Assembly (NCBI RefSeq): GCF_009729555.1
Contig: NZ_WODC01000001.1
Coordinates: forward strand, 744,001-808,000
Reading direction: 5' to 3'
From: Pseudodesulfovibrio alkaliphilus
Lineage (GTDB): Bacteria > Desulfobacterota > Desulfovibrionia > Desulfovibrionales > Desulfovibrionaceae
Length of the DNA stretch: 64,000 nt
The position numbers and the translations under genes were made by a program. Shown here in pieces: positions 44,161 to 64,000 of the stretch. Every line of letters begins with the position of its first letter. Position 1 is the first letter of the stretch. Under the pieces are notes generated by a model. It saw only the letters and a list, made by a program, of their open reading frames with translations. It was not told where the DNA came from and did no database searches.

Positions 44161-44374
44161 AAATCAAGATTAATTGATATATCATGCCCGCCGATCATGC
44201 AAATCAAATTGTGCTGCGCCCTGTTGCAGGGGAACACTTAACTTGAGAAAGGAGGAAATTCCGGGGGGATCTGAGGCGAACGTGGAATTTTTGCAGGACT
44301 GACGCTCATTTCAGGGACAGGATATTCGTCATCGGGTTCGGCTTACTGCACCTTGGCAGTCAGTTTGACACGCC

Positions 44375-44845
44375 GGGATCAAGGCCGACGCCACCGCCAA
44401 GCGTTCGAATTCATCCGTGCCTGAACGGTTCGCGGGAGTAATGTGGTCACAGAGCAGAAATCTGTCCCGACCGTAGGTGTCGCATGGAGCTTGTAGCCGC
44501 AATAGGCCCGGTTTCTCTTGCGGAGCCAGGCCGCCTCCTCGGAGCGGTCCTCTGGCATCACGTCGATGACCTTGCGTGGCCACCGCTGCGATTCGACTAC
44601 CGAGGCGGCCACCACGGCTCCCTCACGGACAAGGAACCCTTGTCCTTCAAGCTAACGGTTGAACATGTCGAGCAAGGTGTCCAGCTCCTTCATGCGGATC
44701 AAACCGTTACAGAAACGACAAATGGCGGTCTCGCCCGGCATGTCGTCCTCAATGGAATAACCGGTGAACCGGGCGAAGGAGGCCAATCGAGCAGCGCCTG
44801 CTCCGCGCCCGGATCGCTCAGGTTGTACCAATGAAGCAATAATAG
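44375..44845 (-). pseudogene. Decayed IS5-type transposase
   Basis: The minus strand reads YNLSDPGAEQALLD, then in another frame RLASFARFTGYSIEDDMPGE and TAICRF, an in-frame TAG at 44652-44654 where Gln is expected (MFNR-stop-LEGQG), then REGAVVAASVVESQRWPRKV and AAWLRKRNRAYCGYKLHA. A further frameshift leads to FLLCDHITPANRSGTDEFER, and the C-terminal third is missing. This matches IS5-family transposases with at least two frameshifts, one nonsense codon, an apparent internal deletion and a 3' truncation. No terminal inverted repeats were found. Confidence 0.75.
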
Positions 44846-45569
44846 CACAATAAATCAGACTGTTAAAGATCAAGAGGCCAACATCTTATGTACCTTCTTC
44901 GAGCTGCGTTGACTTTGAAAATCAATTTCTCTAACCTTAAAGCTTTGTCGCTTCCTTTATTCTTGGTTCTTCGTGATGGAGTTCCAGATCAGTAGGCTTT
45001 GAAGGACGCTTGGTGTTGCCCCCTCAGAAAAATTGCGCGAAATGGGTGGAGCTTTCATTGAGCCATTGACAGCTCTATTACTGCGAATTCTTAGGGTCAG
45101 AACAAGGCGACAGGTCTGGTGACGTTTATAATGCTCTCCTAGCTTGCAAAAACCACGATCTTTTTGGGCACTCTTTGCATCAGATTGAACAGCAATGCAA
45201 GCAACGCATCCGGCTTCAGCCTCCTCAACCCTTAGAGGCAAAAGGTAGTGTCTCAACACTTGCTAAAAAAACACGATTTAACACGTTGCAGCTATTGACG
45301 AAGATCCCTCGAACCGCAACTTCCACCCTTGAATTCCATAGCCTCGGCGCAGGAAAAAGCCGCTCCGTTGCAACCGACAACTTGACCGTGACAGTATGCC
45401 GGGAGGTTGGCTGTAGTTATTCTACGGTATCGTATGCAGCGAGATCGGGCATGCCGAGCGAGGGATTTCTCTGGCCGATATACATATGGAAACATGAGGG
45501 ACGGATCGACTAAGGCACATAAATATATAATAATTTAAGCACTATGCCAAGCAACGCACGAGATACTTT
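44846..45569. other. AT-rich gap between the IS remnant and the sigma-54 activator
   Basis: Short open frames exist (for example 45175-45513 on the plus strand) but show no family features, codon bias or ribosome site. The stretch is much lower in GC than the DNA to its left. Near its end TATAAT at 45526-45531 could be a -10 for the activator gene, though no good -35 is seen. Confidence 0.4.
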
Positions 45570-46988
45570 ATGAAAAGATGTTCCCTGAACGATACGCCCT
45601 TGGAAAAAGCTTTGCTCCCCGAAGGAAGAGAGTCCTGGGATGGCCTCGCTTCGCTGCTTGATGTCCTGCCGGGCATGGCATACCGACGCGTCAATGATGG
45701 CAAGTGGTCTCTCGCCTATGTCAGTGGAGGTTGCCGTGAGCTGCTTGGGGTCGAGCCAGAGGAAATGACAGCCCCTGGCGCAGGGGGATTCACCAATTAC
45801 ATCCACCCTTCCTATCACGTCAGATTTGACGACGCTTCAAAGGCTCTTGCGTATGGAAGTGGCTCCTTTCGGCTGGCTTATGTCACCTCGCATAAACGCG
45901 GATGGGATAGGTGGGTTTTCGATACCGGGGTCGGCGTCTTCGATAGCCGGGGCAAGCTCCAGTACGTTGACGGCTTTGTGTCCGACCATTCGGGCTACAA
46001 GGAAATCCAAAGCGGGATGAGTCGGCAGCTCGGCGAATTCCAGGACTATTTCAGGTCGAGCCGCCTGGGCGATATTGTCGGCAAGTCACCGGCCATGCAA
46101 AACGTCTTCAGCGCCATCATTCAAGTCGCACAGTCCGACGAAAACGTCATCGTCTATGGAGAATCCGGTACTGGGAAGGAGTTGGTAGCCCGCGAAATAC
46201 ACAGGGTCAGCAGGCGGGCGGCCAAGCCGTTCATCCCGGTAAACTGCGGGGCCATTCCTGAAAACCTCATGGAAAGCGAACTGTTCGGCTATCGCAAAGG
46301 GGCTTTCTCCGGTGCAGACAAGGACAAGCAAGGGCTGTTTGAAGCGGCCCATGGCGGGACACTATTTCTGGATGAAGTGGGCGAGATTCCTCTGACCATG
46401 CAGGTAAAACTGCTCCGCGCCCTGGAAGGCGACGGGTTCACGCCGATGGGTGGCTGCGAGGTGGTGAAACCTGACCTGCGTGTCGTTGCTGCCACAAACA
46501 GGAACCTCGCCGACATGGTGGCTAAAGGGCAGATGCGGGCTGATTTCTACTACCGGATCAATATAATCCCCATTCTCATTCCGCCGCTACGCGAGCGCAA
46601 GGAGGACATCCCCCTTCTTGTCGGCCATTTCCTGGGGCAAAGCGATGAGAACAAGTTCATTCCCGGGAGTTCCCTCAAGGCCATCATGGCCTACGACTGG
46701 CCAGGAAATGTAAGGGAATTGAAAAACCAACTTCGTCAATACAGGACATTGGGATTCATGGATATGCTCCACTCCAACGCCGACGACGAACCTGCCCACA
46801 ATTCTCTGGCCTCGCCAACGGCAAAGAGCCTTCGGGAACACCTGGCGCAATGCGAGGTCGAGGCCATCTCGGCCGCCTTATTTCAGAACCAATGGAATCG
46901 AACCAAGACCGCCAACGCCTTGGGCATTGACAGACGAACCCTCTTTGACAAGATCAAAAAAATGGGACTTGATAGCGCATCCGGCTAG
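45570..46988 (+). CDS. PAS-containing sigma-54-dependent activator
   Basis: A 472-residue enhancer-binding protein. Residues 25-150 form a PAS-like sensor ([20 protein letters not shown], and [20 protein letters not shown]). The AAA+ domain spans about 165-390, with Walker A GESGTGKE, Walker [14 protein letters not shown], and the sigma-54 loop as GAFSGA in place of GAFTGA. A Fis-type helix-turn-helix closes the protein ([20 protein letters not shown]). It has no response-regulator receiver domain, so it senses its signal through the PAS domain. A sigma-54 promoter 170 bp downstream makes the import genes its likely targets. Confidence 0.9.
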
Positions 46989-47095
46989 GTGGGGTGCTGG
47001 CCTCCCAAACCGGGGCATTGGGCGATATCCCAGCATTTAGCTCGAATAATTATGTTTTTTCCCTACGCATAGCACGGTGGGGTGGAAACACCCCA
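46988..47095. promoter_or_regulatory. Candidate upstream activator sites for the sigma-54 promoter
   Basis: The 9-mer GGTGGGGTG occurs at 46988-46996 and 47076-47084, 88 bp apart. The second lies in a hairpin TGGGGTG-GAAA-CACCCCA (47078-47095). The pair sits 65-170 bp ahead of the -24/-12 promoter, the range for enhancer sites. The hairpin could instead be a terminator of the activator gene. Confidence 0.4.
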
Positions 47096-47159
47096 ATGGC
47101 CGCCTTTGCGTGTTCCGACATAACAATCTAATATGGCTTACTTTTCAAGAAAAACATCG

Positions 47160-47175
47160 TGGCATGTTTTTCGCT
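47160..47175 (+). promoter_or_regulatory. Sigma-54 (-24/-12) promoter
   Basis: TGGCATGTTTTTCGCT matches the consensus TGGCACG-N4-TTGC with GG and GC in the exact spacing; differences are C to T at position 6 and T to C at position 13. It lies 80 bp before the next gene and downstream of a sigma-54 activator. Confidence 0.75.
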
Positions 47176-47254
47176 AGTAGCGTCCTCATGCGGAGTCCTT
47201 CCTGCGTATTGAGAATGAATGTAACAATCATGTTCAACTAGCGGAGAAAACTGG

Positions 47255-48103
47255 ATGAAAAACATGCCAATCATGGTCAACTCGATATTCATCGGGGACA
47301 AGGTGGTGGATGTGTGCAGTGCCATTGGCATTTATTGCAAAGCCATGTCCACCGGTGCCGTGCCCATGATCGAAACCCGGTATCCCTTCAGCAAGCAGAT
47401 GGAATGCACACTGTGCATTATGGGGCAAAAACGCAAACTGCTCTACAGCACTGCCAAACGGCTTGAAACAAAACATATTGTTTTGGAAAAAAGCGGAGAC
47501 TCGAACAGTCCCTCCCAAATGAGCCAAGAGCTGCGTGAGCTCGGCTACACCGTGGACATTCTCGACTTCACCCAATCCGTATCTGCCGCAATCCTGCAGG
47601 CAGGTGAGATCTTTGGCCGAAAGAAGATCGCACTGGAACGGGCCGACACCTACGAAAAGGAAATGACCAAAGCGCAAGACGCGATGCCCAAAAGTCTTGG
47701 CAAAAAGGTTCTGGTACTTATGGGCCTTTCGCATCGCAAGGCATCAGACACCTATCTCCTTGTGGAAAACTCGGAAGGCGACATCGACAACCTGATCCTC
47801 CGCCCCGCCGGCTGCATTAGTTCAGGCGACGATCTGGCCAAAGGGGATATCCGGGGGATGGGGTTCACGGTCATCAACACCCTTGAAGGCCTTGAATCAG
47901 TCGCTCCTGATGTCATCGCCCTGCTCGGAGACACCTTTGTACCGCAAATGGCAATCCGAAGGCTCCTGGTATCAAATCCCGCAGCCTCACACATTCCGGC
48001 CATCGCGAACCAGGCGGTTTTCTCACTCCCTCACTGTAGCCCAGGCGCTCCGGTATCGATACCGGAATCCATGCAAAGATGGGCCGAGGCGCTGGGATCA
48101 TGA
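47255..48103 (+). CDS. Periplasmic-binding-fold protein without signal peptide (BtuF/FecB-like)
   Basis: A 282-residue protein that looks like a class III substrate-binding protein of iron-chelate/B12 importers. The first lobe has VVDVCSAIGIYCKAM and ETKHIVLEKSG, a long linking helix follows (ILQAGEIFGRKKIALERADT), and the second lobe has KKVLVLMGLSH, GDDLAKGDIRGMGFTVI and the closing HIPAIANQAVFSLPHC. It has no signal peptide (MKNMPIMVNSIFIG), so it should be cytosolic. It is the first gene behind the sigma-54 promoter and ends 34 bp before the TonB receptor. It may bind the imported ligand or its metal inside the cell. The fold call is by pattern only. Confidence 0.6.
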   Translation: MKNMPIMVNSIFIGDKVVDVCSAIGIYCKAMSTGAVPMIETRYPFSKQMECTLCIMGQKRKLLYSTAKRLETKHIVLEKSGDSNSPSQMSQELRELGYTVDILDFTQSVSAAILQAGEIFGRKKIALERADTYEKEMTKAQDAMPKSLGKKVLVLMGLSHRKASDTYLLVENSEGDIDNLILRPAGCISSGDDLAKGDIRGMGFTVINTLEGLESVAPDVIALLGDTFVPQMAIRRLLVSNPAASHIPAIANQAVFSLPHCSPGAPVSIPESMQRWAEALGS

Positions 48104-48137
48104 TTGATTTCATTGGAGAAAAGGAGTGAGAGGAAAA

Positions 48138-50159
48138 ATGTGCAAGAAAAGCAGCTTGAAACTGGCACACAGAGCGGTCGCCTTTGCGTTGGTCGCACTG
48201 CTGACGTTGCCCGGAGTCGCGGCAGGGAAGAATCCCGAGAAAAAGGCCGCGCAACAAGAAAAGGGGAAAACCGGCATCATACTGGACACCGTGGTGGTCT
48301 CCGCAACCCGCACAGAAGTTTCGGCATTCGAGGCTCCGGCGTCCGTGTCCGTGGTCGGAGAAGAGGAAATCAACCGGGAGCAACCCACCACTATCAGGGA
48401 TCTCCTCGAAAACATTCCCAACGTGGATTTCTCCAGCGGAACCTCCACCTACTTCCAGGTGCCGAGCATTCGCGGGCTGGAGGACGAACAGACCATCATC
48501 AAGATAGACGGCGCCCGCCAGCTCTATAACGACAATGCGGGCAACGCCAGAACACCGATCGTCATCGAACCAACCTTACTCAAACAGGTCGAGGTGGTCC
48601 GAGGCCCCTCCTCCACCCTGCATGGCTCAGGCGGGATCGGCGGCGTCATCTCCATGCAAACCAAGGACGCCTCCGACATGCTCAGGCCCGGCGAAAAATT
48701 CGGGGCTCAGATCAGGGGTGGGCATCAGTCGGTTGATTCCCAGGAGTGGCTTTCCTCCACGGCCTATGCCGGGGATGACTTCTTCGGTTTGGTAGCCAAC
48801 TTGACCACCCGCGACTTCGGACACATGCGCACCAGTGATCCGGACAGCAGCAATTCCGTGATCTATCGCACCGGCAGCAGCACCACCAACTACCTCAAAG
48901 GCTCCATCACTCCGTCCGAGGGACAGTACGCCTCGCTGGCCTACAACAGGTTCGAAGATGTCTTCCACACCGCTGGCGGCAGCGTATACCGCACCAACCA
49001 AACCCAGGTCACCGGCAACTACAACCTGAGCCCCGCAGACAACGACTGGCTCGATCTGCGCGCCGTAGGCCAATACACATACCGAGCCAACAGCTCCCAA
49101 GTCGCCATAGAATCCAGCGACAACATGGTCGGTTGGGGGGGCGACATTCAAAACACCTTCCGCTTCGGCACGGAAGAGGTCTTCCACCACACCCTGACAG
49201 CGGGCACAGACTATTACATCGACCACCAGAAAGGATCGGACGCCACCAGGCCCAAAGCCACAGGGTGGGATTACGGGATGTTCATTCAGGACAACATATC
49301 CCTGCCCTACGGATTCTCCCTCATCCCGGCCGCCCGGTACACTCAATACAGCCGCAAGGAATCAAGCGGCCAATGGGCGAGCCAGAAGGAGTCCGAAATC
49401 ACTCCCAAGGTCACCGCCAACTGGAAGGCCCGCAAGTGGCTCAACCTCTTCGTCACCTATGCAGAATCTTTCCGGCCGCCGTCCCTGAACGAGATTTACT
49501 TCTTCATGGATTGGCCCGGCTTCGGCCAAGTGGTTCCCAATCCCGACCTCAAACCGGAAAAGGGAAAAACCTGGGAGTACGGCACGGGGCTGACCTTTGA
49601 CGGCGTGTTCACCGACAATGATCCGTTGCGCATCAAGGCCGTGTATTTCCGGGAGATCATAAAGGACTTCCAGAGTGCCGTGTTCATCGGCGGTGTTCTC
49701 CCGAACATGCGCTGGACCACAGTCAACACCGGCAGCGTCCGCCGCTTCGGCTACGAAGCCGAGATGCACTATGCCTATGAGCGCTACGCCATGAGCCTGA
49801 CTTACGGCAAGGTCATGGGCATGGACGAGGAAACCGGAGCCCGTGTGGGCCAGACCCCGGAACAGGTCGGGCTGCGGGTACACTGCGACATCCCGGAATA
49901 CGATCTTGGCCTAACCTGGAAATCCGACTACACCGCCGAGTCCAAGGGGTACCAGCCGTGGAACGGCAGCACCGACACCGTGCCTGACTACCATATCCAT
50001 GGCTTTGCCGTGGCCTGGACCCCTAAGAGTCTTCTGGGCTACGAGGGCCTGCGCGCAGACCTTGGCGTAGACAACCTTTTTGACAAGAAATACATCACCT
50101 ACCGCGGTGCCTGGGACCGGGGCAGGAATGTCAAGCTGGGGCTGTCCCTCACATTCTAA
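48138..50159 (+). CDS. TonB-dependent receptor, heme-receptor type
   Basis: A 673-residue outer-membrane receptor. Signal peptide: MCKKSSLKLAHRAVAFAL onward to GVAAG. The TonB box region is LDTVVVSATRTE, followed by the plug (VSVVGEEEINREQPTTIRDL, GSGGIGGVISMQTKD) and a beta-barrel ending VKLGLSLTF with the usual terminal phenylalanine. FRPPSLNEIYF and VVPNPDLKPEKG match the FRAP/NPNL boxes of heme receptors, but no histidine lies between them. ATG 48138 is preferred over GTG 48126. It is in the sigma-54 unit and followed by a Yej-type ABC importer. Confidence 0.85.
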   Translation: MCKKSSLKLAHRAVAFALVALLTLPGVAAGKNPEKKAAQQEKGKTGIILDTVVVSATRTEVSAFEAPASVSVVGEEEINREQPTTIRDLLENIPNVDFSSGTSTYFQVPSIRGLEDEQTIIKIDGARQLYNDNAGNARTPIVIEPTLLKQVEVVRGPSSTLHGSGGIGGVISMQTKDASDMLRPGEKFGAQIRGGHQSVDSQEWLSSTAYAGDDFFGLVANLTTRDFGHMRTSDPDSSNSVIYRTGSSTTNYLKGSITPSEGQYASLAYNRFEDVFHTAGGSVYRTNQTQVTGNYNLSPADNDWLDLRAVGQYTYRANSSQVAIESSDNMVGWGGDIQNTFRFGTEEVFHHTLTAGTDYYIDHQKGSDATRPKATGWDYGMFIQDNISLPYGFSLIPAARYTQYSRKESSGQWASQKESEITPKVTANWKARKWLNLFVTYAESFRPPSLNEIYFFMDWPGFGQVVPNPDLKPEKGKTWEYGTGLTFDGVFTDNDPLRIKAVYFREIIKDFQSAVFIGGVLPNMRWTTVNTGSVRRFGYEAEMHYAYERYAMSLTYGKVMGMDEETGARVGQTPEQVGLRVHCDIPEYDLGLTWKSDYTAESKGYQPWNGSTDTVPDYHIHGFAVAWTPKSLLGYEGLRADLGVDNLFDKKYITYRGAWDRGRNVKLGLSLTF

Positions 50160-50167
50160 CGACAATC

Positions 50168-50193
50168 GGGCGCCCCCCGGAAGGGAGGCGCCC
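50168..50193 (+). other. Intra-operon hairpin between receptor and binding protein genes
   Basis: Arms GGGCGCCCCCC and GGGAGGCGCCC with a GGAA loop pair with one mismatch. There is no T tract, so it more likely stabilises the upstream mRNA or reduces read-through than ends transcription. Confidence 0.45.
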
Positions 50194-50211
50194 GCCAACG
50201 GATTGCTTACA

Positions 50212-52035
50212 ATGTCCCGATTCAGTAGCGTGTGCGCTTTATTGCTGCTAGTCTGCCATGCCTACGCGGCGGCGGCGTATGCCGCGCCGCCTGCCCATGC
50301 GGTGTCGTCAGCGGGCCAGCCCAAGTACGGGCCGGGATTCAGCCATTTCGCATACGCCGATCCTGATGCCCCCAAGGGAGGAGAACTGCGCCAGAGCGCC
50401 ACGGGCAGGTTCAACAACCTCAACCCCTTTTCCACCAAGGGAATCCCCCCGGCAGGTTGGCATTATCTCGCCGATAGCCTGACCGTGGCCGCCGAGGACG
50501 ATCCCTTTACCCAATATGGCCTTGTGGCCGTAGGGATAGAGATGGCCGATGATCGGTCGTGGATCGCATTTCATCTCGACCCGCGAGCCCGCTTCCACGA
50601 CAAAACCCCCATCACCGCCCATGACGTGGCCTTCACCTATCAAGCCATGAGCAGAGGGTTTGGCAACGCTTTTCGCCGGTTCTTTCATCACGTCGAGTCC
50701 GTAGAAACACTCGGGGAGCGCACGATTCGATTCAATTTCAAACCCAATGCTCCCCGATCGCTCCCGTTCATTCTCGGCCAGCTTCCGATCTACCCGGCCC
50801 ATTTCTGGGACGGAGATGACCTGGAGCATACCACACTGACTCCGCCCTTGGGCAGCGGACCGTACCGGGTGAAGTCCCTCAAGCCCGGCCGCGAGATCAT
50901 CTATGAAAGGGTCACGGACTATTGGGCCAAGGACCATCCCGTCCGCCGGGGTCAGTTCAACTTCGACATCGTCAGGTTCGACTACTACCGTGACGCCACA
51001 GTGGCCCTCGAAGCGTTCAAGGCCGGGTTGTATGACATCCGACAGGAGCATTCCGCCAAGGTCTGGGCCACGCTCTACAGCGGCCCGTCCCTCGAATCCG
51101 GAGAAATTGTCCGGGAGGAAATCAAACATGAGCAGCCCCTCGGCATCCAGGGGTTCTTTTTCAATATCCGACGGCCGGTGTTTCGCGACTGGCGCGTCCG
51201 GCGCGCACTCCTGCTCGCCTTTGACTACGAATGGGTCAATCGCAAGCTCTTGTTCGGGCAATACCCGCGTAACAGCAGTTTTTTCACCAATTCGGAGTTG
51301 GCGGCACGCGGCCCTGCCCAGGGCCGCGAACTGGCGCTCCTGGAGCCCTTCAGATCAACCCTGCCCCCCGAACTGTTCAAAACAATTCGCTCCATCCCAT
51401 CCACTCCCGGAGACGGCTTCAACCGCGAAAACCTGCTTGAGGCCGCCCGACTCTTGGAGGAGGCCGGATATGACCTGCAAGGCGGACGGCGCATTCACCG
51501 GGATACCGGTCAGCCGCTCGAATTCCGTCTGGTCACGGACTCCACCTCCATGCGCCGTATCGCCATGATCTTCGGCCGACAGTTGCAGCGCCTTGGCGTT
51601 GATATGCAACTTCTGCTGGTGGACTCACCCCAATTCATCCGGCGGTTGCGCGATCACGACTACGACATGGTGGCCTCGTCCTATGGCCAAATGCTGATCC
51701 CTGGGCAGGAGCAGATGCTCTATTGGCACTCCTCTGCGGCTCAAATGGAAGGCGGTCGCAACCTTATCGGCCTGACCCGGCCCGATGTGGACGCCCTGAC
51801 CGAGGCTCTGGCCCTGGCCGACTCCTGGGAAGAAACCGTGGCTGCAGGCCGTGCACTGGACCGGGTGCTCATGTGGGGCGACTATGTCATCCCATTGGGC
51901 GGATCGACGTTCTACAGGGTCGCGTGGTGGGACAGGTTCGGCTTTGTGGACAAACGCCCCGGATATGGCCTGGCCCTGGACTGCTGGTGGGAAAAGAAAC
52001 CGCTGAACAGGCCGACAACACGAGGGGACGGCTAG
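50212..52035 (+). CDS. ABC transporter substrate-binding protein, family 5 (YejA-like)
   Basis: A 607-residue periplasmic binding protein of the oligopeptide/dipeptide family. Signal peptide: VCALLLLVCHAYAAAAYA up to about residue 25. The YejA-like start is GFSHFAYADPDAPKGGELRQ, followed by FNNLNPFSTKGIPPAGW; the family 5 core is present in ITAHDVAFTYQAM and GSGPYRVKSLKPGREIIYER. It delivers a peptide-like ligand to the permease pair encoded next. ATG 50212 has no clear ribosome site; the frame is open upstream into the receptor gene. Yej systems take up peptides and peptide-like antibiotics such as microcin C. Confidence 0.9.
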   Translation: MSRFSSVCALLLLVCHAYAAAAYAAPPAHAVSSAGQPKYGPGFSHFAYADPDAPKGGELRQSATGRFNNLNPFSTKGIPPAGWHYLADSLTVAAEDDPFTQYGLVAVGIEMADDRSWIAFHLDPRARFHDKTPITAHDVAFTYQAMSRGFGNAFRRFFHHVESVETLGERTIRFNFKPNAPRSLPFILGQLPIYPAHFWDGDDLEHTTLTPPLGSGPYRVKSLKPGREIIYERVTDYWAKDHPVRRGQFNFDIVRFDYYRDATVALEAFKAGLYDIRQEHSAKVWATLYSGPSLESGEIVREEIKHEQPLGIQGFFFNIRRPVFRDWRVRRALLLAFDYEWVNRKLLFGQYPRNSSFFTNSELAARGPAQGRELALLEPFRSTLPPELFKTIRSIPSTPGDGFNRENLLEAARLLEEAGYDLQGGRRIHRDTGQPLEFRLVTDSTSMRRIAMIFGRQLQRLGVDMQLLLVDSPQFIRRLRDHDYDMVASSYGQMLIPGQEQMLYWHSSAAQMEGGRNLIGLTRPDVDALTEALALADSWEETVAAGRALDRVLMWGDYVIPLGGSTFYRVAWWDRFGFVDKRPGYGLALDCWWEKKPLNRPTTRGDG

Positions 52036-52036
52036 C

Positions 52037-53131
52037 ATGCTGACATATCTTGCCAAAAGATTCCTGTTTCTGGTCCCGACGCTCTTGGGCATCCTGGCGG
52101 TTAATTTCTTCGTCGTCCAGTTTGCCCCTGGTGGTCCAGTGGAACAAACCATCGCCCAGATGACTGGCGCGAACCGCTCCGTGCTGGAGCGGGTGAGTGG
52201 GGCGGCTCCGGACGAAATGCGCTCCGCCGACACCTCTGTCTCCCAGTCCATCTACAAGGGGGCCGACGGCCTGGACCCGGCCCTAATCCGGCAAATCGAA
52301 GAATACTACGGATTTGACAGACCTGCGGGCGAACGTTTCCTGCTCATGCTGAAGAATTACGCCACCATGAACCTAGGCGAGAGCTTTTTCCGCGACTCCA
52401 CCGTGACGGACCTCATTCTTGAGAAAATGCCGGTTTCGATTTCCCTTGGGCTGTGGAGTACCCTCATCATCTACCTGGTCTCCATTCCCCTTGGCATTGC
52501 CAAGGCGGTGCGCAGTGGCAGCCGTTTCGATGTCTGGACGACCACAGCCGTGATCACGGGCAACGCCATCCCCACGTTCCTCTTTGCAGTCGTTCTCATC
52601 ATCTTCACAGCGGGCGGACGCTATCTCCAGTGGTTTCCATTGCGAGGCCTGACTTCGCCGAATTTCGACGACTTAAGCCTTGCCGGTCAGATTCTCGACT
52701 ATTTCTGGCACATGATCCTGCCGGTAACCTCCATGCTGCTCGGCGGATTCGCGGGGCTGACGCTACTCACCAAAAACTGCTTTCTGGACGAAATAGGCAA
52801 GCTTTATGTCATGACCGCCAGGGCCAAGGGGCTGACCGAAAAGCGCGTACTCTACGGCCACGTCTTTCGCAACGCCATGCTTCTGGTCATTTCCGGCCTG
52901 CCGGCAGCCTTTATCGGAATTTTCTTCACCGGGTCGCTGCTGGTGGAGGTCATCTTCTCTCTGGACGGCCTTGGCCTCATGGGTTTCGAGGCCGCCATGG
53001 AGCGTGACTACCCGGTTATGTTCGCCACCCTCTACATCAGCTCGCTGATCGGACTTGTCATGAAGGTGGTCTGCGACATCACCTATATGTTCGTTGACCC
53101 GCGCATCAACTTCAACTCCTTCGACTCGTGA
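52037..53131 (+). CDS. ABC transporter permease (YejB-like)
   Basis: A 364-residue inner-membrane permease of the BPD family. It begins MLTYLAKRFLFLVPTLLGIL, with a long periplasmic loop and five further membrane segments. The EAA-like motif for ATPase contact is YVMTARAKGLTEKRVLYGHV. QFAPGGPVEQ near residue 32 is typical of DppB/YejB proteins. It begins one base after the stop of the binding protein, so coupling is likely. It pairs with the next permease. Confidence 0.9.
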   Translation: MLTYLAKRFLFLVPTLLGILAVNFFVVQFAPGGPVEQTIAQMTGANRSVLERVSGAAPDEMRSADTSVSQSIYKGADGLDPALIRQIEEYYGFDRPAGERFLLMLKNYATMNLGESFFRDSTVTDLILEKMPVSISLGLWSTLIIYLVSIPLGIAKAVRSGSRFDVWTTTAVITGNAIPTFLFAVVLIIFTAGGRYLQWFPLRGLTSPNFDDLSLAGQILDYFWHMILPVTSMLLGGFAGLTLLTKNCFLDEIGKLYVMTARAKGLTEKRVLYGHVFRNAMLLVISGLPAAFIGIFFTGSLLVEVIFSLDGLGLMGFEAAMERDYPVMFATLYISSLIGLVMKVVCDITYMFVDPRINFNSFDS

Positions 53132-53133
53132 CC

Positions 53134-54177
53134 ATGCGCATATTCACGCTCTCGGGCATCAACCGCCGCCGATGGCACACCTTCAAGGCCAACCGCAAGG
53201 GATATTGGTCCCTGATGCTGTTGCTGACACTGTTCGGCCTCAGCCTGTGCGCCGAACTGGTGGCCAACGACAAACCATATGTGGTCAAACATGGTTCGCA
53301 CTACTATTTTCCCATGATGCGGGATATTCCAGAAACACAATACGGTGGCGATTTCCAGACCCCGGCCGACTACCGGGACCCGGCGGTCCAGTCGATGATC
53401 CACGAAAACGGCTGGATGCTCTGGCCCCCGGTTCGATTCAGCTATGACACGGTCAACTACGCCTGCGCCGAACCTTTTCCCGCGCCGCCGAGCTTTGACA
53501 ACCCCCTGGGAACGGATGAATCCGGTCGTGACGTGTTCGCCCGCGTGCTCTACGGATTTCGGCTCTCCATGGCGTTCGGCCTGGCCCTGGCCGCCATAGG
53601 CTCCGCAGGTGGCATCCTGGCTGGTGCCTATCTCGGCTACAAGGGAGGGTGGACAGACATCCTGGGACAGCGGTTCATGGAAATATGGGGCGGATTGCCG
53701 GTCACCTATCTGCTCATAATTCTGGCCAGCTTCACCGAGCCAACCTTCTTCATGCTCCTTGGCATCATGCTGCTTTTCAGCTGGATGGGGCTTGTGGATG
53801 TGGTCCGCGTAGAATTCCTACGCTGCCGGAATCTCGAATATGTGAAGGCCGCACGGGCTCTGGGCATGAGTGAGGGAGCCGTCATGCTCCGCCATATCCT
53901 GCCCAACGCCCTCGTGGCCACCTTGACCTTCATGCCATTCATTCTCAGCGGATCGATCACCACCCTGACCTCGCTGGATTTTCTCGGCTTCGGCCTCCCG
54001 CCGGATTCTCCGGCCCTGGGGGAGCTGCTGGCCCAGGGCAAGGCCAATCTCCATGCCCCGTGGATTGGTGTTTCCGCCTTTGGTGTTCTGGGCATGCTGC
54101 TGATCCTGCTGATTTTCCTTGGCGAAGCGGTTCGTGACGCCATGGCTCCGCTTTCCAACAACCGGGGGACAAAATGA
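53134..54177 (+). CDS. ABC transporter permease (YejE-like)
   Basis: A 347-residue permease of the DppC/YejE type. RWHTFKANRKGYWSLMLLLT is the usual N-terminal amphipathic part and first membrane helix. NPLGTDESGRDVFARVLYGF is a family signature, and YVKAARALGMSEGAVMLRHI is the EAA-like loop. GTG 53128 overlaps the preceding stop and is an alternative start. The stop overlaps the start of the ATPase gene (ATGA). Confidence 0.9.
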   Translation: MRIFTLSGINRRRWHTFKANRKGYWSLMLLLTLFGLSLCAELVANDKPYVVKHGSHYYFPMMRDIPETQYGGDFQTPADYRDPAVQSMIHENGWMLWPPVRFSYDTVNYACAEPFPAPPSFDNPLGTDESGRDVFARVLYGFRLSMAFGLALAAIGSAGGILAGAYLGYKGGWTDILGQRFMEIWGGLPVTYLLIILASFTEPTFFMLLGIMLLFSWMGLVDVVRVEFLRCRNLEYVKAARALGMSEGAVMLRHILPNALVATLTFMPFILSGSITTLTSLDFLGFGLPPDSPALGELLAQGKANLHAPWIGVSAFGVLGMLLILLIFLGEAVRDAMAPLSNNRGTK

Positions 54178-55772
54178 TGGACTCCCTGCTCGAAATCCGG
54201 GGGTTGTGCGTCTCCTTCACAGGTCAGCCGCAGAAATCTCCTGCCGTGCGTGGCCTTGATCTCAGCCTTGAAAAAGGTCAATGCCTCGCCCTTGTTGGCG
54301 AAAGCGGCTCTGGAAAGTCCGTCACCGCCCAAGCCGTCATGGGTCTACTACCCTCTGGCTCAACCCGGGTGACAGGCTCTGTCCACCTCGCCGGAACAGA
54401 CATGATCTCAGCACCGCCTGAGATGGTCAGAGCTATGCGAGGCAACCGGGTGGGCATGATCTTCCAGGAGCCTCAATCTGCCCTCAATCCTCTCCATTGC
54501 GTGGAGAAACAGATCGGCGAAACCCTGAAGGCGCATGGACGCGTGTCCGCAGCACAGGCCCGACGCAGGACGCAGGAACTGCTGGAGTTGGTCCGCATCG
54601 ATCCTTCAGAATCACGGCTTAAGGCGTATCCGCATCAACTCTCCGGCGGACAACGCCAGCGGGTCATGATCGCAATGGCCCTGGCCAACAATCCGGATTT
54701 GCTCATCGCCGACGAGCCGACCACTTCCTTGGACATGACCGTGCAGGCGCGTATTCTTGACCTGATATCCTCGTTACGCTGTGAGCTGGGCATGGCAGTA
54801 CTGCTCATTACCCACGATCTGCGCACAGTTCGCGACCACGCTGACCGTGTGGCGGTCATGCACCAGGGTGCGCTGGTGGAAGAGGGCAGCACCTCCGGGA
54901 TATTTTCCGGAGGCAAACACGAATACACGCGAATGCTTCTGGATACGACCCTGCCCACGGAGCCGCCGCCAGCCGCAACCGGTCCATGCCTGCTAGCCAC
55001 ACGAAAGCTCACAGTGGACTTCGGACTGCCGGGGAAAATGGACCTGCGCAACGGCAAGCTCTGGACGAAGCGCCGGTTTCGGGCCGTGAACGAAGTTGAC
55101 CTGACTGTCTTTGAAGGGCGCAATCACGCCATTGTTGGAGAATCGGGGTCGGGCAAGACCACATTTGCCGAGGCTGTCCTGGGATTCGTGCGGTTTTCAG
55201 GAAAGGTCGAATTCTCTGGCCGAGACCTCGCAGTCCTGAATCGAAAGGAAGTGTTGTCGGTGCGGCGGTGCCTGCAACCCGTGTTCCAGGACCCGTTCGC
55301 CAGCTTGAATCCGCGCATGACCATAGGCCAGATCGTCTCCGAGGGGCTCAGGGTTCACGGGAGCCCATCCCGAGATGGGCTTGACGCCGCAAAGGCCATG
55401 CTGAAAGAAGTGGGAATCCACGCGGACGCCGTGGACCGCTATCCCCATGAGTTCTCCGGCGGACAGCGTCAGCGGATTGCCATCGCCAGGGCTCTTGTGA
55501 TGCGCCCAAGGCTTATGATCCTTGATGAGCCGACCTCCGCTCTGGACAAACCCGTACAGACGATGATGGTGGATCTCCTGGCGCAGCTTGGCGCAAGGCA
55601 TGGCGTCACCTACGTCTTCATTACCCACGATTTGGGTCTGGTGCGGTCCCTGTGCCATGAGATGACCGTCCTCCGCGACGGCAGCGTCGTCGAGCAGGGG
55701 TTGGTCTCCGACATCTTTTACGCTCCGGAAAATGCCTACACCAAGCGACTCCTTGCTTCGGCCCACCTCTAG
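54174..55772 (+). CDS. Dual ATP-binding ABC protein (YejF-like)
   Basis: A 532-residue protein with two fused ATPase domains, as in YejF and some oligopeptide importers. First domain: LVGESGSGKSVTAQAVMGL, signature LSGGQRQRVMIAMALANN, Walker B LLIADEPTTSLDM. Second domain: IVGESGSGKTTFAEAVLG, FSGGQRQRIAIARALVMRP, LMILDEPTSALDKPVQ. It powers import by the two permeases just upstream. The start overlaps the permease stop. The operon from 47255 to here comprises six genes in the same direction. Confidence 0.93.
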   Translation: MMDSLLEIRGLCVSFTGQPQKSPAVRGLDLSLEKGQCLALVGESGSGKSVTAQAVMGLLPSGSTRVTGSVHLAGTDMISAPPEMVRAMRGNRVGMIFQEPQSALNPLHCVEKQIGETLKAHGRVSAAQARRRTQELLELVRIDPSESRLKAYPHQLSGGQRQRVMIAMALANNPDLLIADEPTTSLDMTVQARILDLISSLRCELGMAVLLITHDLRTVRDHADRVAVMHQGALVEEGSTSGIFSGGKHEYTRMLLDTTLPTEPPPAATGPCLLATRKLTVDFGLPGKMDLRNGKLWTKRRFRAVNEVDLTVFEGRNHAIVGESGSGKTTFAEAVLGFVRFSGKVEFSGRDLAVLNRKEVLSVRRCLQPVFQDPFASLNPRMTIGQIVSEGLRVHGSPSRDGLDAAKAMLKEVGIHADAVDRYPHEFSGGQRQRIAIARALVMRPRLMILDEPTSALDKPVQTMMVDLLAQLGARHGVTYVFITHDLGLVRSLCHEMTVLRDGSVVEQGLVSDIFYAPENAYTKRLLASAHL

Positions 55773-56789: not shown

Positions 56790-58883
56790 TTACCAGCGGT
56801 AGGCCAACTGTAGCCCCACTTCACGAGGCGGAGCTGTCAGGGAATAATCCATGGTGGACTCATACAGCGTCGAATATCGCTTATCGAAAAGATTATTGGC
56901 ATACAGGTAGATATCAAAGGACTCCTGCTCATAGCCGACTTTGGCGTTTACCGTGGCCATCGATCCTCGGGATGCGGTATTGCCGGCGTCCCAGTAAATC
57001 TTGCTGGAATACAATACGCCAGCCTGCCCCATAAAACCGCTTTGATGGCGATACACCAGAGAGAGATTGCCCGTGTAGTCAGGGGTATACTGAACTTTTT
57101 TCCCGGAATAATCCACATCGACGCCAAGCATGTTCGTGGCCTTGTACTCATCAAACTTTGCATGCGTATATCCAAACGAGGCAGTACCACGCAGCCCGGG
57201 AAGAATCTGCGCATCAAGCTCAGCCTCCGCGCCATACGCGGTTACCTTGCCCGCGTTTGTAGCAACAGGACCGCCGATGATCATATTCATCGACGTGACA
57301 TGCATGTCAGTATATTTGGAATAAAAAAGCGTGAGGTTGGCGTTGAGCCTGTTTTCAAGCCACGAGGTTTTTGCCCCCATTTCATAGTTCCAGGCATACT
57401 GAGGCTTGTAGGTGGTTTCGGTTATCCCTGGAACCACCTGGCGGCTAAATCCGCCGGGCAGAAAGCTTCGATTCACTCCGGCATAGACCATGTGCTCATC
57501 GGTGATCTCGTAGCTCAGGACCGCCTTGGGCAAGAACTCGCTCCAGGACTCGCTCGGATTTTCGTTAACCAGAGAGACGGCTCCCATGGTCGTCTTAATA
57601 TTGGCCCGGCGGTCGACATACTGCCACCGCAACCCAGTGGTGAGCTTCAGTTCGTCCACGAACAGCGGCACCTCGGCCTGACCGAAGGGGGCGAACTCCA
57701 ACATCTTGTCCTCATACGGGAAGTTGATCGTGGTTGAAGGAGTATACCATTTCTTGCGGTCCAGCTCGCGGTATCCGCCATACAGTCCTGCGAGCCAGTT
57801 GACCCCACCCGCCGAGCTGTCGGCGTTTTGGATGCGCAACTCCTGCGTCACCTCCCAGCTTGACTCCTTGTATTCGTTATAAGTTCCAGCCATGTATGTG
57901 CTGTTGTCGTGGGAGGCTTTCATGTCATCGCTGCGAAATGTGGTGACGCTTTTCAGCTCCACGGCAGAGAGGTCAACTGCACCGTGAAGCGCGGCGCTGA
58001 AAGTATCCTTGTTTCGATGATCCGTTTCGCTGGCGTCGCCATGCAATGAAGGTCCGCTTCCCCGCACAACGGGTAAGGCACCTTCCTTGTACTTCGTGTA
58101 AGTCAGGTGCAGATTGAGTTCGGAATCATCGGTGGGCAGCAGGCGAAGTTGGCCTTTCAGGCGGGTATTGCGTTCGTCGTTGCTGTCCGAGCCAGTCATG
58201 TATCCATCACGGTAGTCATGCGAACCAGACAAGGAGAAAAAAAGCTTGTCTTCGATGATCGGACCACTGGTTGTGGCACCTGCCTCCATGCTGAACTCGG
58301 AGCCTCCGTCAATGTACACCTTGCCCGTTGGAGTGTTGTCAGGTTTTTTGGAGATAATGTTGACAACACCGGAAAAGGCGTTTTTCCCATACAGGGTCGC
58401 TTGCGCCCCGCGCAGAACCTCAATGCGCTCAATATTCAGAAGAGAGGCATCCATGGAACTGTAGGAATCGACGGGAACACCGTCGATATAAATCACAAGC
58501 GGGGTTGTCTCCGTCCCCATGGAGGTGATTGAACCGCGAAAGGATGCCATGGTATTGCTGCCAATAGTGTCAACCTGCATCAGGTTGGGCACCTGGGCGA
58601 GGACATCATGGACGGTCTTCAGGTTCTTGTCTTCCAGGTCCTGTGCCGTGAACACCGTCACAGCCACGGGTGTCTTTTGCACTTCGGTCTGTCTTTTCTC
58701 TGCGGTGATCACCACGGGAACCAACGTATGGTAAGATTCTTCCTTTTCCGAACCAGCCCCGGCGTTCTCGCCCTCCAAGCTCTCTGCCATCGCCTTGGGC
58801 GAAGCCAACAAGGCCACTGCGGCCACAAGAAATACGATCATAAACCCGTTACGGATTCTTTGCCGAACCTTACTGAACTGCAT
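56790..58883 (-). CDS. TonB-dependent receptor, FyuA (pesticin/yersiniabactin)-like
   Basis: A 697-residue outer-membrane siderophore-type receptor. The signal peptide is NGFMIVFLVAAVALLASPKA ending AMA. The TonB box region is LVPVVITAEKRQTEV, the plug has SLLNIERIEVLRGAQATLYG and KNAFSGVVNIISKKPDNTP, and the barrel ends GLQLAYRW with the terminal aromatic residue. YVNNLFD-type (LYANNLFDKRYSTLYES) and NAGKVTAYGAEAELDAQ resemble FyuA. A Fur box lies 26 bp ahead of the start. It is divergent from an AraC regulator and YbtPQ-like transporter genes, the same set as the Yersinia uptake module. Confidence 0.85.
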   Translation of the reverse strand: MQFSKVRQRIRNGFMIVFLVAAVALLASPKAMAESLEGENAGAGSEKEESYHTLVPVVITAEKRQTEVQKTPVAVTVFTAQDLEDKNLKTVHDVLAQVPNLMQVDTIGSNTMASFRGSITSMGTETTPLVIYIDGVPVDSYSSMDASLLNIERIEVLRGAQATLYGKNAFSGVVNIISKKPDNTPTGKVYIDGGSEFSMEAGATTSGPIIEDKLFFSLSGSHDYRDGYMTGSDSNDERNTRLKGQLRLLPTDDSELNLHLTYTKYKEGALPVVRGSGPSLHGDASETDHRNKDTFSAALHGAVDLSAVELKSVTTFRSDDMKASHDNSTYMAGTYNEYKESSWEVTQELRIQNADSSAGGVNWLAGLYGGYRELDRKKWYTPSTTINFPYEDKMLEFAPFGQAEVPLFVDELKLTTGLRWQYVDRRANIKTTMGAVSLVNENPSESWSEFLPKAVLSYEITDEHMVYAGVNRSFLPGGFSRQVVPGITETTYKPQYAWNYEMGAKTSWLENRLNANLTLFYSKYTDMHVTSMNMIIGGPVATNAGKVTAYGAEAELDAQILPGLRGTASFGYTHAKFDEYKATNMLGVDVDYSGKKVQYTPDYTGNLSLVYRHQSGFMGQAGVLYSSKIYWDAGNTASRGSMATVNAKVGYEQESFDIYLYANNLFDKRYSTLYESTMDYSLTAPPREVGLQLAYRW

Positions 58884-58908
58884 CGCGCCATCTCCTCTTG
58901 ACCATGAT

Positions 58909-58927
58909 GATTGTGAAACTCATTATC
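58909..58927. promoter_or_regulatory. Fur box at the FyuA-like receptor gene
   Basis: GATTGTGAAACTCATTATC matches the 19-bp Fur consensus at 15 positions. It lies 26 bp upstream of the receptor start, where it would cover the transcription start. Confidence 0.75.
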
Positions 58928-59107
58928 GGCAAAAGAGTATTATATTCCGAACTCTTCATTGAACATATGACACCCTTCTGTCAGATACGATTCTTTAAAT
59001 TAATCGTGATGCGTTGTCTTGACGTGTTTATTTGAATTCTACCCAATTCCGACAAATCAGAGAGTTGCGGACGCTTCCCCGGCCTCGTGGCAAGTCGTTG
59101 ACTTGGG

Positions 59108-59134
59108 CCAAATTTGGATATAACTGTCAAATTT
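59108..59134. promoter_or_regulatory. Inverted repeats in the receptor/regulator intergenic region
   Basis: CCAAATTTGG (59108-59117) is a perfect palindrome and CAAATTT recurs at 59128-59134, giving arms AAATTTG / CAAATTT. TTGACT and TATAAC flank part of it with 15-bp spacing. In the 409-bp gap between divergent genes this may be the AraC-type activator site or a promoter. Confidence 0.35.
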
Positions 59135-59232
59135 ATCGTAGTGACCGACCAGAGGGCAGTTCACCCGAGTGGCGCTGTGCCTGAGAAATCAGCTCCATCA
59201 GAGGATGGTAAATACTTTTTTGCCATTTTGAC

Positions 59233-59251
59233 GATAATGATTTTCATTTTC
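59233..59251. promoter_or_regulatory. Fur box ahead of the AraC regulator gene
   Basis: GATAATGATTTTCATTTTC matches the 19-bp Fur consensus at 16 positions. It lies 41 bp before the regulator start. Confidence 0.8.
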
Positions 59252-59292
59252 GATTCCGGGAGATTGTGCCGGAAAGTGTGAAGGAAGAAGCT

Positions 59293-60300
59293 ATGAATTT
59301 TGACGCTATTCTAAAAGAACGACAGGTTTTTTCCAGAATGTCCAAGCTGGACATCCCGGCGACGCTGCATGCTCAGCCAGAGGATTTTACCTTTGAACAC
59401 GGCATGGTGACGGGAAACGGATTCCTGTTTGATCCGTTGCCGGGGTTCCATTTTGGTGCATGCGGACCAGTTTACATCAACGCGCCAATTGACGGTGACT
59501 TTCTTTACGACACGCAGCTCACCATCGCGCTACTTGTCCTGGAAGGCTCATGCACAATCGAGCTGGATCAATCAACCTCACACCATCTTCAGAACAGCAT
59601 GTTTTTGATAGGCAGATGGAACAATCAAGCAGGCAAGGTTTCTGTCAAATCAAATCAAACCTACTGCCATGCCGCCTTCATGCTTGAGGAAAAGGCCCTT
59701 GAGGCCGTCTTCGGATTACGGAGTGCGAAAGACATAGTGAAAACCCTGGAAAAAGCGGCCGGGCAAAGAAGAGGGGGTGCCCATTCTGTATCAGGCATTG
59801 CCGGACCAGACACCATACTCGCGGCGAGAAACGTGCTTGCCATGCAGCGCATTGACGGGCTTGACATTCTCAGGCTCAGAGGGGCTTGCATCGGGCTTTT
59901 TTCTAAACTTATTAAGACCATTTCCGCATCAAGCACTGCGTACTACCCAATACCAAATGACGACAAGATACTGCTGGAAAAACTCAAGAAGCGCATTGAA
60001 AATGACTTCCTAAACATTGGACCAGCATCGGTTATATGCGCTGAATACCACATGAGCTTTTCAAAAGCCAATAATGCCTTTAAGCATCTCTATTCAACAA
60101 CTATTGCGAAGTATATTCAGCAATGCAAATTAAAGCACGCCTATACATTGCTTCATTCTCGAAAAATGAACGTCAGCGAATGCGCCTTCGAGATTGGCTA
60201 CTCAAATGTCAGCCACTTCATCCTTGCCTTCAAGAAACAATATGGGATTACCCCTAAAAAGCTTACACATCTGCAGGACGAGGCTGGAATAACCATCTGA
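59293..60300 (+). CDS. AraC family regulator (YbtA/PchR-like)
   Basis: A 335-residue regulator. The C-terminal 100 residues hold two AraC helix-turn-helix motifs; the second is MNVSECAFEIGYSNVSHFIL followed by AFKKQYGITPKKL. The N-terminal 220 residues are a ligand-sensing domain (LPGFHFGACGPVYINAPIDG). YbtA and PchR of this group sense a ferric siderophore and turn on its receptor. ATG 59293 is chosen with AAGGAAG ahead. It is divergent from the receptor and in line with the ABC genes; a Fur box precedes it, so iron controls it too. Confidence 0.9.
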   Translation: MNFDAILKERQVFSRMSKLDIPATLHAQPEDFTFEHGMVTGNGFLFDPLPGFHFGACGPVYINAPIDGDFLYDTQLTIALLVLEGSCTIELDQSTSHHLQNSMFLIGRWNNQAGKVSVKSNQTYCHAAFMLEEKALEAVFGLRSAKDIVKTLEKAAGQRRGGAHSVSGIAGPDTILAARNVLAMQRIDGLDILRLRGACIGLFSKLIKTISASSTAYYPIPNDDKILLEKLKKRIENDFLNIGPASVICAEYHMSFSKANNAFKHLYSTTIAKYIQQCKLKHAYTLLHSRKMNVSECAFEIGYSNVSHFILAFKKQYGITPKKLTHLQDEAGITI

Positions 60301-60537
60301 CGATCCTCGACGGTACTTTACTCTATCCACCGCCCTCCCCCCGTTTAAAACCAAAGCTAAGCCTCCGCCTCAGGCGGAAGCCTGGTTTTGGTCGCATACG
60401 CCCATCGGAACGCCCCTCCATTAGCTCCTGATTGATCTTTTTTTGCCCATTGTTTGCAGGCGCCGCAACCTATGGTTTTTTGGTGGCATGATGTCTTCCT
60501 TTGGAAAAACCTGCTGCTTCCAGCCAAGGAGACGCTG

Positions 60538-62337: not shown

Positions 62338-64000
62338 ATTCCATCCTGTTCACCCCGGAAGACCGTGCCAGCCTGCGCAAAAACGTTCTCATTACCTTTG
62401 CAACCCAGGTCATGCTCATTATTTCCTATATCATCGTCTTTTTTCTCATCAAGGATATCTCCGAAACATCATTATCCCACGCATCACTCCTTGGCTACAC
62501 GGCAGTCCTTTTGTCATGTTGCGCCATATTTTATTATCTGCGTCTCCAGTCGTATTCCCAGGCGCTTGAGGACGGCTATCTGACTGTGTCCAGGCTGCGC
62601 ACGCGACTTAGCTCGCGGCTTCGCAAACTGCCCATGGCCTTTTTCCGCCAGAATGAGACTGCGGATATCAGCAACCGCCTTTTGCAGGATATGACAGACG
62701 CCGAACTGGTCTTTTGCATCCACATCCACGAGATTCTGGCCGGGCTGATGGTGATCGCACTGATCACTGCCACGCTCCTTTTCATGGACACCTCCCTGGC
62801 TCTGGCCATGTTGCTGGCTGCCGCCCCGATCATTCCCATAGGCATCTATCTGTCCCGATTCATGAAAAAAAACAGCCCTGCGATTATCCGACTGCGAGAG
62901 CGCGTCAACAAAACACTTATGGAATACTTCGGCGGCATCGCGGAAATCAAGGCTGCCGACCTGTGCGGAAAACGATTCACTCCCTGGCACCGGGCCGACG
63001 CGGCATTACGCGCAGAATCCCTTGCCCTGGAAACCCGTTTCGGCATCTGGGCGCAATCAGCCCAGGTGGTTCTCGATTTTTCCTACATCGCAATGCTGCT
63101 TCTCGGAAGCTGGCTGATTTCATCGGGAAGCATCCCGGTCATGACCTTCATCTTTTTCCTGCTTCTGGCCGGGCAGCTTTACGCTCCCTTGTTCAGCCAG
63201 ATCATGCTGTATTCGGAACTCCGCCACTGCTCCATTTCATTGAAGCGCACCTCGGCCACGCTCAATGAAAAACCCCTGCAAACCCTCCCTGGGCATACCC
63301 CTCCCAAGGGCATGGATATCGCGTTCAACAACGTGTGCTTTTCTTACAACAAAACGCCTGTCCTCAAGGATGTCTCCTTCACCGTGCCACAACATACTGT
63401 CACGGCCTTGGTTGGGGCGTCGGGAGGAGGAAAAAGCACCGCTGTCAACCTGTTACTGCGCTTCTGGGATGTCTCGGAGGGCTCCATAACCATCGGCGGC
63501 ACTGATATCAGAACCTTTCGGCAATCAGATCTCTATGAATTATTCAGTGTGGTTTTCCAGGACGTTTACCTATTCAACGACAGCATCATGAACAATATCC
63601 TGCTGGCCCGCCCGGGCGCCACGGAGCAGGAGGCGGTGGAGGCCGCCACAAAAGCTTGCTGCCATGACTTCATCATGGAACTCGAAGAGGGTTACCAGAC
63701 CCTTGCCGGGGAAAGGGGAGCCCGCCTTTCCGGCGGAGAAAGGCAGCGCATCGCCATCGCCAGGGCCATCCTCAAAAACGCACCCATCCTGGTCCTGGAC
63801 GAGGCCACCGCCTCCATCGACCCGGAAAACGAGCTGCTCATACAACAGGGGCTCACCAACCTGATGCAGGGCAAAACCCTGCTTGTCATCGCTCACAGGC
63901 TCTCGACCATCAGCTCCGCCGACCAGATTCTCTTGCTTCACGATGGACGCATCGCCGAACAAGGGACACACAACGAACTCATGGCCAGCAAAGGAATGTA
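62331..64000 (+). CDS. ABC half-transporter, YbtQ-like, 3' end outside window
   Basis: The frame runs from ATG 62331, behind GGAAAGGAGGGGGCAGCC, to the window edge: 556 codons, with the C-terminus missing. It begins MLDSILFTPEDRASLRKNVL, has six membrane helices, and an ATPase domain with Walker A LVGASGGGKSTAVNLLLRF, signature RLSGGERQRIAIARAIL and Walker B ILVLDEATASIDPENELLIQ. It overlaps the YbtP-like gene and is its likely partner. Further siderophore genes may follow outside the window. Confidence 0.87.
   Translation, partial: MLDSILFTPEDRASLRKNVLITFATQVMLIISYIIVFFLIKDISETSLSHASLLGYTAVLLSCCAIFYYLRLQSYSQALEDGYLTVSRLRTRLSSRLRKLPMAFFRQNETADISNRLLQDMTDAELVFCIHIHEILAGLMVIALITATLLFMDTSLALAMLLAAAPIIPIGIYLSRFMKKNSPAIIRLRERVNKTLMEYFGGIAEIKAADLCGKRFTPWHRADAALRAESLALETRFGIWAQSAQVVLDFSYIAMLLLGSWLISSGSIPVMTFIFFLLLAGQLYAPLFSQIMLYSELRHCSISLKRTSATLNEKPLQTLPGHTPPKGMDIAFNNVCFSYNKTPVLKDVSFTVPQHTVTALVGASGGGKSTAVNLLLRFWDVSEGSITIGGTDIRTFRQSDLYELFSVVFQDVYLFNDSIMNNILLARPGATEQEAVEAATKACCHDFIMELEEGYQTLAGERGARLSGGERQRIAIARAILKNAPILVLDEATASIDPENELLIQQGLTNLMQGKTLLVIAHRLSTISSADQILLLHDGRIAEQGTHNELMASKGM

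Follow-up and report, generated by a model that had tools for sequence, protein, structure and literature searches.

A candidate iron-acquisition operon in Pseudodesulfovibrio alkaliphilus combining sigma-54 and Fur sites, a Yej-type importer and a signal-less binding-fold protein

In the 64,000-nucleotide stretch of Pseudodesulfovibrio alkaliphilus DNA considered here (the window, part of contig C1 of a 3.22-Mb genome, G000), the gene for a PAS-type sigma-54 activator is followed by six genes encoding a binding-fold protein without a signal peptide (the binder), a TonB-dependent receptor and a YejA-YejB-YejE-YejF-like importer. With slightly better than even confidence, the locus is read from its sequence as an iron-acquisition operon importing an iron-bearing ligand under an AND gate of Fur derepression and sigma-54 activation. 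Directly observed are which genes are present and in what order, the sequences of promoter and operators, and the recurrence of all these in other genomes.

All seven genes lie on the forward strand. The activator (45570 to 46988, 472 residues) has Pfam domains PAS_3, Sigma54_activat and HTH_8, corresponding to a PAS domain, an AAA+ domain with the motif GAFSGA and a Fis-type helix-turn-helix. The binder, also labelled bf (47255 to 48103, 282 residues), is a probable homologue of class III substrate-binding proteins (SBPs) with the motif ECxxC...GxKRKLL. The receptor (48126 to 50159, with a possible start at ATG 48138) belongs by profile to the ShuA/heme subfamily and has a signal peptide by eye. 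Next come a YejA-like SBP_bac_5 protein (50212 to 52035; the open reading frame was listed from TTG 50080, ATG 50212 being the likelier start), YejB-like and YejE-like permeases (52037 to 53131 and 53128 to 54177, above the cut-offs of NCBIfam PRK15133 and PRK15021, respectively) and a YejF-like double ABC ATPase (54174 to 55772) whose best match, PRK15134, scores 572, below its cut-off of 834. The six genes from binder to yejF form one colinear run with intergenic gaps of -4 to 52 bp. The original prediction had named these reading frames and gene types and joined them into a single import operon reaching from outer to inner membrane; the frame listing and the Pfam and NCBIfam matches place each of them as proposed, and gene set, order and family matches agree with one operon.

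The binder was sought in overlapping samples of 148 relatives, 348 genomes of the order and 395 of the phylum, and by profile in 348 genomes of the class, where the positive genomes were the same 22 as in the order-level search. The signal-less form occurs in four genomes: the window's own, G029 of the same genus (60% identity; locus L022, the nearest relative), G162 of another genus (45%; L043) and G339 (34%; L044). The remaining matches, including six besides the window's own in the phylum sample, reach at most 33% identity and are of the exported form where tested. A contig search with two peptide patterns from the binder N-terminus matched no locus but that of G029 (Pseudodesulfovibrio sp. 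MC-09), the patterns being too narrow to exclude others.

In L022 the order activator-binder-receptor-yejA-yejB-yejE-yejF is kept, with identities of 69, 60, 75, 71, 84, 81 and 68%, and in L043, where an activator orthologue is likewise present, it is kept from activator through yejE and gives way to a CRISPR-like repeat array. L044 contains binder-receptor-yejA-yejB-yejE; its yejF-like gene (41%) is in inverted orientation, and no activator lies adjacent. The receptor and yejA, yejB and yejE accompany the signal-less binder in all four loci; a lack of such co-occurrence had been named beforehand as grounds for refuting the original prediction, which has withstood this check. YejA itself is found in 33 of 118 relatives; 20 of the 31 Yej neighbourhoods other than those of G000 and G029 were examined by tblastn, and neither the binder nor this receptor or activator occurs in any of them. 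YejABEF has large genes as neighbours in four congeners (L101, L103-L105); Pfam identifies those of L101 as encoding an M16 peptidase and a plug-domain receptor, accompanied by DUF3450 and ExbB, and those of L103-L105 were judged by position and size. The array in L043 (15380 to 16290) begins about 100 bp past yejE, at the place expected for yejF. The YejA matches of six relatives (L067-L069, L073, L078, L081) each contain one internal stop (five TAG, one TGA); in G116, the one of the six that was checked, the match extends 6 bases beyond the frame's own stop, so that these stops are probably due to matches running past the gene end.

The operon is predicted to be transcribed from a -24/-12 promoter, TGGCATGTTTTTCGCT (47160 to 47175, forward strand), which agrees with 11 of 12 consensus positions and places the start near 47185. 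When both strands of the window were scored over these 12 positions, with GG and GC obligatory, it was the sole site to reach at least 11, and one of eight to reach at least 10. Elements at the matching position in L022 (10/12) and L043 (12/12) further bear out the earlier call of a sigma-54 promoter here. The element goes with the activator: it is found in all three loci with an adjacent activator gene and is absent from the leader of L044, the one locus without. The three activators share GAFSGA, a variant of the sigma-54 contact motif GAFTGA, and rpoN is present in all four genomes; of the 37 activators of D. vulgaris, 25 have the exact motif (Kazakov et al. 2015, PMC4641369, drawn on here in part). 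Sigma-70-like sites between 45300 and 55900 are at chance level (3 versus 3.3 expected), and one such site (9/12) lies directly upstream of the activator gene. Where the Fur box of the L044 leader ends there is, by eye, a TTGACA, with TATATC 15 bp further on, and that operon may use sigma-70.

Two candidate upstream activator sites (UAS) are predicted on the forward strand, GTGGGGTGCTGGCCTCCCAA (46989 to 47008, 10/12) and GTGGGGTGGAAACACCCCAA (47077 to 47096, 11/12, where a hairpin is also possible), each opened by a copy of the 9-mer GGTGGGGTG and scored against the palindrome GTGGGG-N8-CCCCAC. In the window and L022 the palindrome stands just past the activator stop codon and again 88-90 bp on, the second copy beginning 83 and 85 bp, respectively, upstream of the -24 element. 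L022 scores 9 and 12, L043 scores 10 and a poor 8, and L044 has no GTGGGG-type palindrome better than 7/12. The whole genome holds 15 places with at most one mismatch, against 4 for the reversed control. A copy in L022 is followed by T-runs, making a terminator possible. The repeated candidate enhancer 9-mers noted earlier are thus present in two copies. As a pattern the palindrome is no rarer than chance in the window; support for the UAS comes from position and from recurrence in relatives.

The original prediction had set sigma-54 control of this operon in contrast to Fur control of the neighbouring module, a contrast that does not hold, since the operon has a Desulfovibrio-type triple Fur box in all four loci. 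In the window it occupies 47209 to 47237 on the forward strand, about +25 to +53 from the predicted start. Desulfovibrio Fur sites are described as overlapping boxes with a 6-bp shift (Rodionov et al. 2004, PMC545781, drawn on here in part), and in all four leaders, which share the palindrome TGAnnnTGA...TCAnnnTCA, WTGAAAATNATTTTCAW boxes stand in tandem with that shift. Because the initial Fur mask had been drawn up after the sequences were viewed, the test was redone with a matrix of 42 Desulfovibrio sites taken from that source, significance being judged against 200 dinucleotide shuffles. The triple-box scores are 42.6 in the window, 57.5 in L022, 63.8 in L043 and 62.9 in L044, and no shuffle of 200 matches any of them. 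Measured from the predicted start, the L022 box runs from +28 to +56 and the L043 box from -10 to +18; in these two loci and the window, 16-25 bp separate the end of the box from the start codon. The window's triple box ranks third there, behind those at 59231 (before an AraC gene) and 44909; ranked as a tandem or single box it falls lower.

These operators bear directly on a rival explanation, that the locus is a general peptide scavenger under sigma-54 with a Fur box present by chance. YejABEF is chiefly known as a peptide importer of enterobacteria, and sigma-54 frequently governs nutrient uptake; however, the Fur box stands at the corresponding place in all four loci and beats all shuffles, and small peptides need no TonB receptor, leaving this explanation very improbable.

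Tandem Fur boxes also accompany the activator genes, at the 5' end of the reading frame in L022 and about 40 bp upstream in L043 (each unmatched by 200 shuffles within 400 bp). The corresponding box in the window, TTGACTTTGAAAATCAATTTCTC (44909 to 44931, no strand assigned), lies 660 bp upstream of the activator and is unmatched by 200 shuffles within 800 bp. By eye it is identical at 20 of 23 bases to the box before the L022 activator, and may therefore be the same site, displaced by worn inserted DNA; that it belongs to the import module is a guess. The surrounding 1.3 kb (44200-45500) is without a convincing gene and looks by eye like worn transposon remains; the box within it is second in strength among the window's tandem Fur boxes.

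On the basis of these genes and sites we infer what the proteins do, which way the regulation works and what part the cytosolic binder plays. The TonB receptor would carry an iron-bearing organic ligand into the periplasm, where YejA would bind it for YejB-YejE-YejF to pump into the cytosol, and there the signal-less SBP-fold protein would take over the ligand or its iron. When iron is plentiful, Fur-Fe(II) bound to the triple box just downstream of the sigma-54 start (overlapping the start in L043) would block transcription. When iron is short, Fur would leave both the operon and the activator gene, and the PAS activator would then bind the GTGGGG palindromes and fire the sigma-54 promoter.

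Several observations weigh against this iron-acquisition operon. The four genomes with the signal-less binder all belong to one family, and in G162 no yejF is found in the 20 kb of L043, while the adjoining L053 gives only ABC matches of 33-36%. Of the four triple Fur boxes, that of the window has the lowest score, and 6 of 200 shuffles reach the 15.3 of its best single box; within 400 bp upstream of the activator there is no Fur box (best score 3.6, equalled by 126 of 200 shuffles). The genome has six Fur-family genes, which suits control of the Fur type but leaves several candidates for the protein that would bind. Palindromes with at most two mismatches number five in the window, two of them the candidate UAS, against 9.06 expected. 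Finally, no siderophore-synthesis gene, TonB or ExbBD is found among the genes of the operon.

The unusual member of the operon is the binder. Its gene product scores 25.2 bits against Pfam Peripla_BP_2 (PF01497), just under the cut-off of 27.5. A 29-row profile of the binder and its relatives, from which L019 (partial, 192 residues) and L012 (the same protein stretch as L011) are omitted, has IsdE as its best match in the PDB (4e-10); its other matches include Lmo2184, a binding protein for iron uptake and further binders of iron ligands. The AlphaFold2 model is confident (pLDDT 92.5, pTM 0.88). A hidden signal peptide upstream was considered and rejected, as only 10 open codons precede Met1; this upholds the earlier description of a binding-fold protein lacking a signal peptide. 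None of the four signal-less proteins has an export signal, versus a hydrophobic N-terminus in 24 of 25 relatives, the remaining one being located at the end of a contig; the 12-residue mean hydrophobicity there is at least 2.19 in those 24 and at most 1.26 in the four. In a midpoint-rooted tree the four of 29 form one clade with support of 100/100; one row, L036, is long-branched and was marked unsure by the program. On these comparisons of sequence, the signal-less binder is a predicted cytosolic offshoot of an exported IsdE-like family.

The residues of the binder tell the two forms apart. C51 is invariant in all 29 proteins and C187 is nearly so (three of the four signal-less, 24 of the 25 exported), and C54 is found in all four signal-less and in 7 of 25 exported proteins. 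A cysteine at 261 or 262 is present in all four and in no exported relative, as is each of G34, Y43, P44, F45, E50, G57 and R60; K61 is shared by all four and by 3 of 25. The binder probably receives the imported ligand or its iron in the cytosol. That it serves solely as partner of the activator is less likely, since L044 retains it without an adjacent activator or sigma-54 site, and its main role is therefore probably with the cargo. A more detailed proposal, which we hold as speculative, is that a relocated SBP has become a new intracellular acceptor, which might take the ligand from YejBEF via ECxxC...KRKLL and the cysteine at 261/262, strip or relay the iron, and perhaps present the ligand to the PAS activator, coupling import to sigma-54 activation.

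The exported relatives are themselves possibly an undescribed iron-uptake component. Five of them (L031, L033, L048, L051, L052), among 19 fetched neighbourhoods, lie within 10 kb of a FeoB confirmed by Pfam, a test applied where a likely gene was noticed, and this association favours the iron-acquisition reading of the operon; a tandem Fur score of at least 40 was reached in five of eight neighbourhoods scanned, without shuffles. L029 is near znuABC-like genes by eye, and L026 near ExbB and ExbD. Across L029, L031, L033, L048, L051 and L052 the repeated neighbours of the exported relatives are FeoB, znuABC-like genes or a DUF4198 protein. The window's genome also has an exported relative (L023 7945-11140, on G000:C1), beside a Phenol_MetA_deg-type protein and a Fur-family regulator, in a locus with two tandem Fur boxes (score 42.0). 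A plasmid search for the binder gave three Rhodovulum records at 26%, and in the one examined a binding-protein gene lies between hutX and a SufD-family gene.

The nature of the ligand is approached through the receptor and YejA. The window's receptor has Plug and TonB barrel domains by Pfam and scores 388.1 against the TIGR01785 cut-off of 316.85, as expected of the heme-type receptor originally described; of the three receptors scanned, those of L043 (441.5) and L044 (370.9) exceed it too, and by profile the best solved relative is ShuA. These matches favour heme or another tetrapyrrole as ligand, with Yej in a Dpp-like role, Dpp serving heme import in E. coli, and the binder as an IsdE/HutB-like heme acceptor replacing HutX/HemS, the cytosolic heme carriers. 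The binder's best matches, IsdE and Lmo2184 (a heme binder), and its invariant C51 point the same way, and HutW and HutX score above cut-off in G000 and G339, away from the import locus. On the other side, the heme histidines of ShuA, which we take to be H86 in the plug and H420 in the barrel, have no counterpart at either position in the receptors of the window and L022, although in L043 the barrel position is occupied by a histidine and in L044 there is one nearby. Neither HutW nor HutX is found above cut-off in G162 (100% complete) or G029 (82% complete), and in G339 the HutW gene adjoins a different TonB receptor. A heme importer is accordingly judged an improbable alternative, though one of some weight, and the tetrapyrrole-like ligand first proposed has lost ground with the missing histidines. 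In G339 the HutW gene and this other receptor form a cluster (L132 208-8650) to which, by eye, ECF-type transporter and ExbB/ExbD-like genes also belong; it is likely a separate heme system. If the locus is indeed an iron-acquisition operon, it would have in common with HutX/HemS a cytosolic acceptor of an imported iron compound, differing in that the acceptor would be a class III SBP-type protein.

The YejA profile has its best PDB matches in entries named YejA (8fsr, which we take to be E. coli YejA), with a strong match to MbnE (5icq, 507 bits). In methanobactin import by MbnT/MbnE, a TonB receptor and a YejA-type binding protein take up a peptide metallophore, and both components recur here. 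If the metal were another than iron (copper, as with methanobactin, nickel or zinc), a peptide-like metallophore would also suit the cysteine-rich binder and the exported relative near znuABC-like genes. Against it, no MbnB-family gene is found above cut-off in any of the four genomes, and the operator is of Fur type: a NikR- or ZUR-type operator was rejected, the patterns taken from PMC545781 fitting the four leaders at only 7-10 (NikR) and 8-10/14 (ZUR), with the best ZUR match, in L044, being the Fur palindrome itself. Import of another metal is thus unlikely. Under the preferred iron-acquisition reading the ligand may be either a peptide-type xenosiderophore or a tetrapyrrole.

Paired outer- and inner-membrane importers of iron ligands are already known, and for sulfate reducers the locus supplies a concrete candidate open to testing. 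It shares with the YejABEF peptide/microcin C importer an SBP_bac_5 protein, two permeases and a fused ATPase, and differs in that a TonB receptor and a predicted cytosolic protein of SBP type go with it and in its Fur and sigma-54 sites. A close published candidate is the Fur-controlled pqqL cluster of Desulfovibrio, with ABC-transporter genes and exbB/exbD/tonB, put forward as a siderophore importer (Rodionov et al. 2004, PMC545781). Fur boxes, an ABC importer and TonB-type uptake are common to both, and the congener YejABEF loci (L101, L103-L105) resemble the pqqL arrangement; the pqqL type differs in its AraC-type FoxR, another receptor, M16 peptidase, DUF3450 and ExbB, and in none of the 20 contexts examined is there a cytosolic binder. 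The same source names FoxR, PchR, AlcR and YbtA as activators. PchR/FoxR circuits similarly place one uptake module under Fur and a dedicated activator, which there is AraC-type and in the window a sigma-54 enhancer-binding protein. One promoter would thus join sigma-54 and Fur sites, with an enhancer-binding protein filling the AraC-type activator's place, and the monophyletic cytosolic offshoot of an exported family may show the passage from transport protein to intracellular carrier. In the part of PMC545781 used here, the deltaproteobacteria examined in 2004 are said to lack siderophore ABC transporters, and 'TonB' is absent from the main text of PMC4641369. Within the one PMC library searched, no paper was listed with a title or abstract describing this exact gene set, subscription papers being largely outside the search, in agreement with the earlier remark that no such system had been described, the related pqqL candidate (PMC545781) notwithstanding.

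Downstream, the gene next after yejF encodes MntP on the opposite strand. The region from 56790 to 63998 contains a TonB receptor on the reverse strand, an AraC-type regulator whose strong Fur box lies at 59231, and two ABC proteins, each a fusion of membrane and ATPase parts, that are YbtP/YbtQ-like by eye (Pfam was applied to the first only); by its predicted genes this neighbour is a PchR-type iron module.

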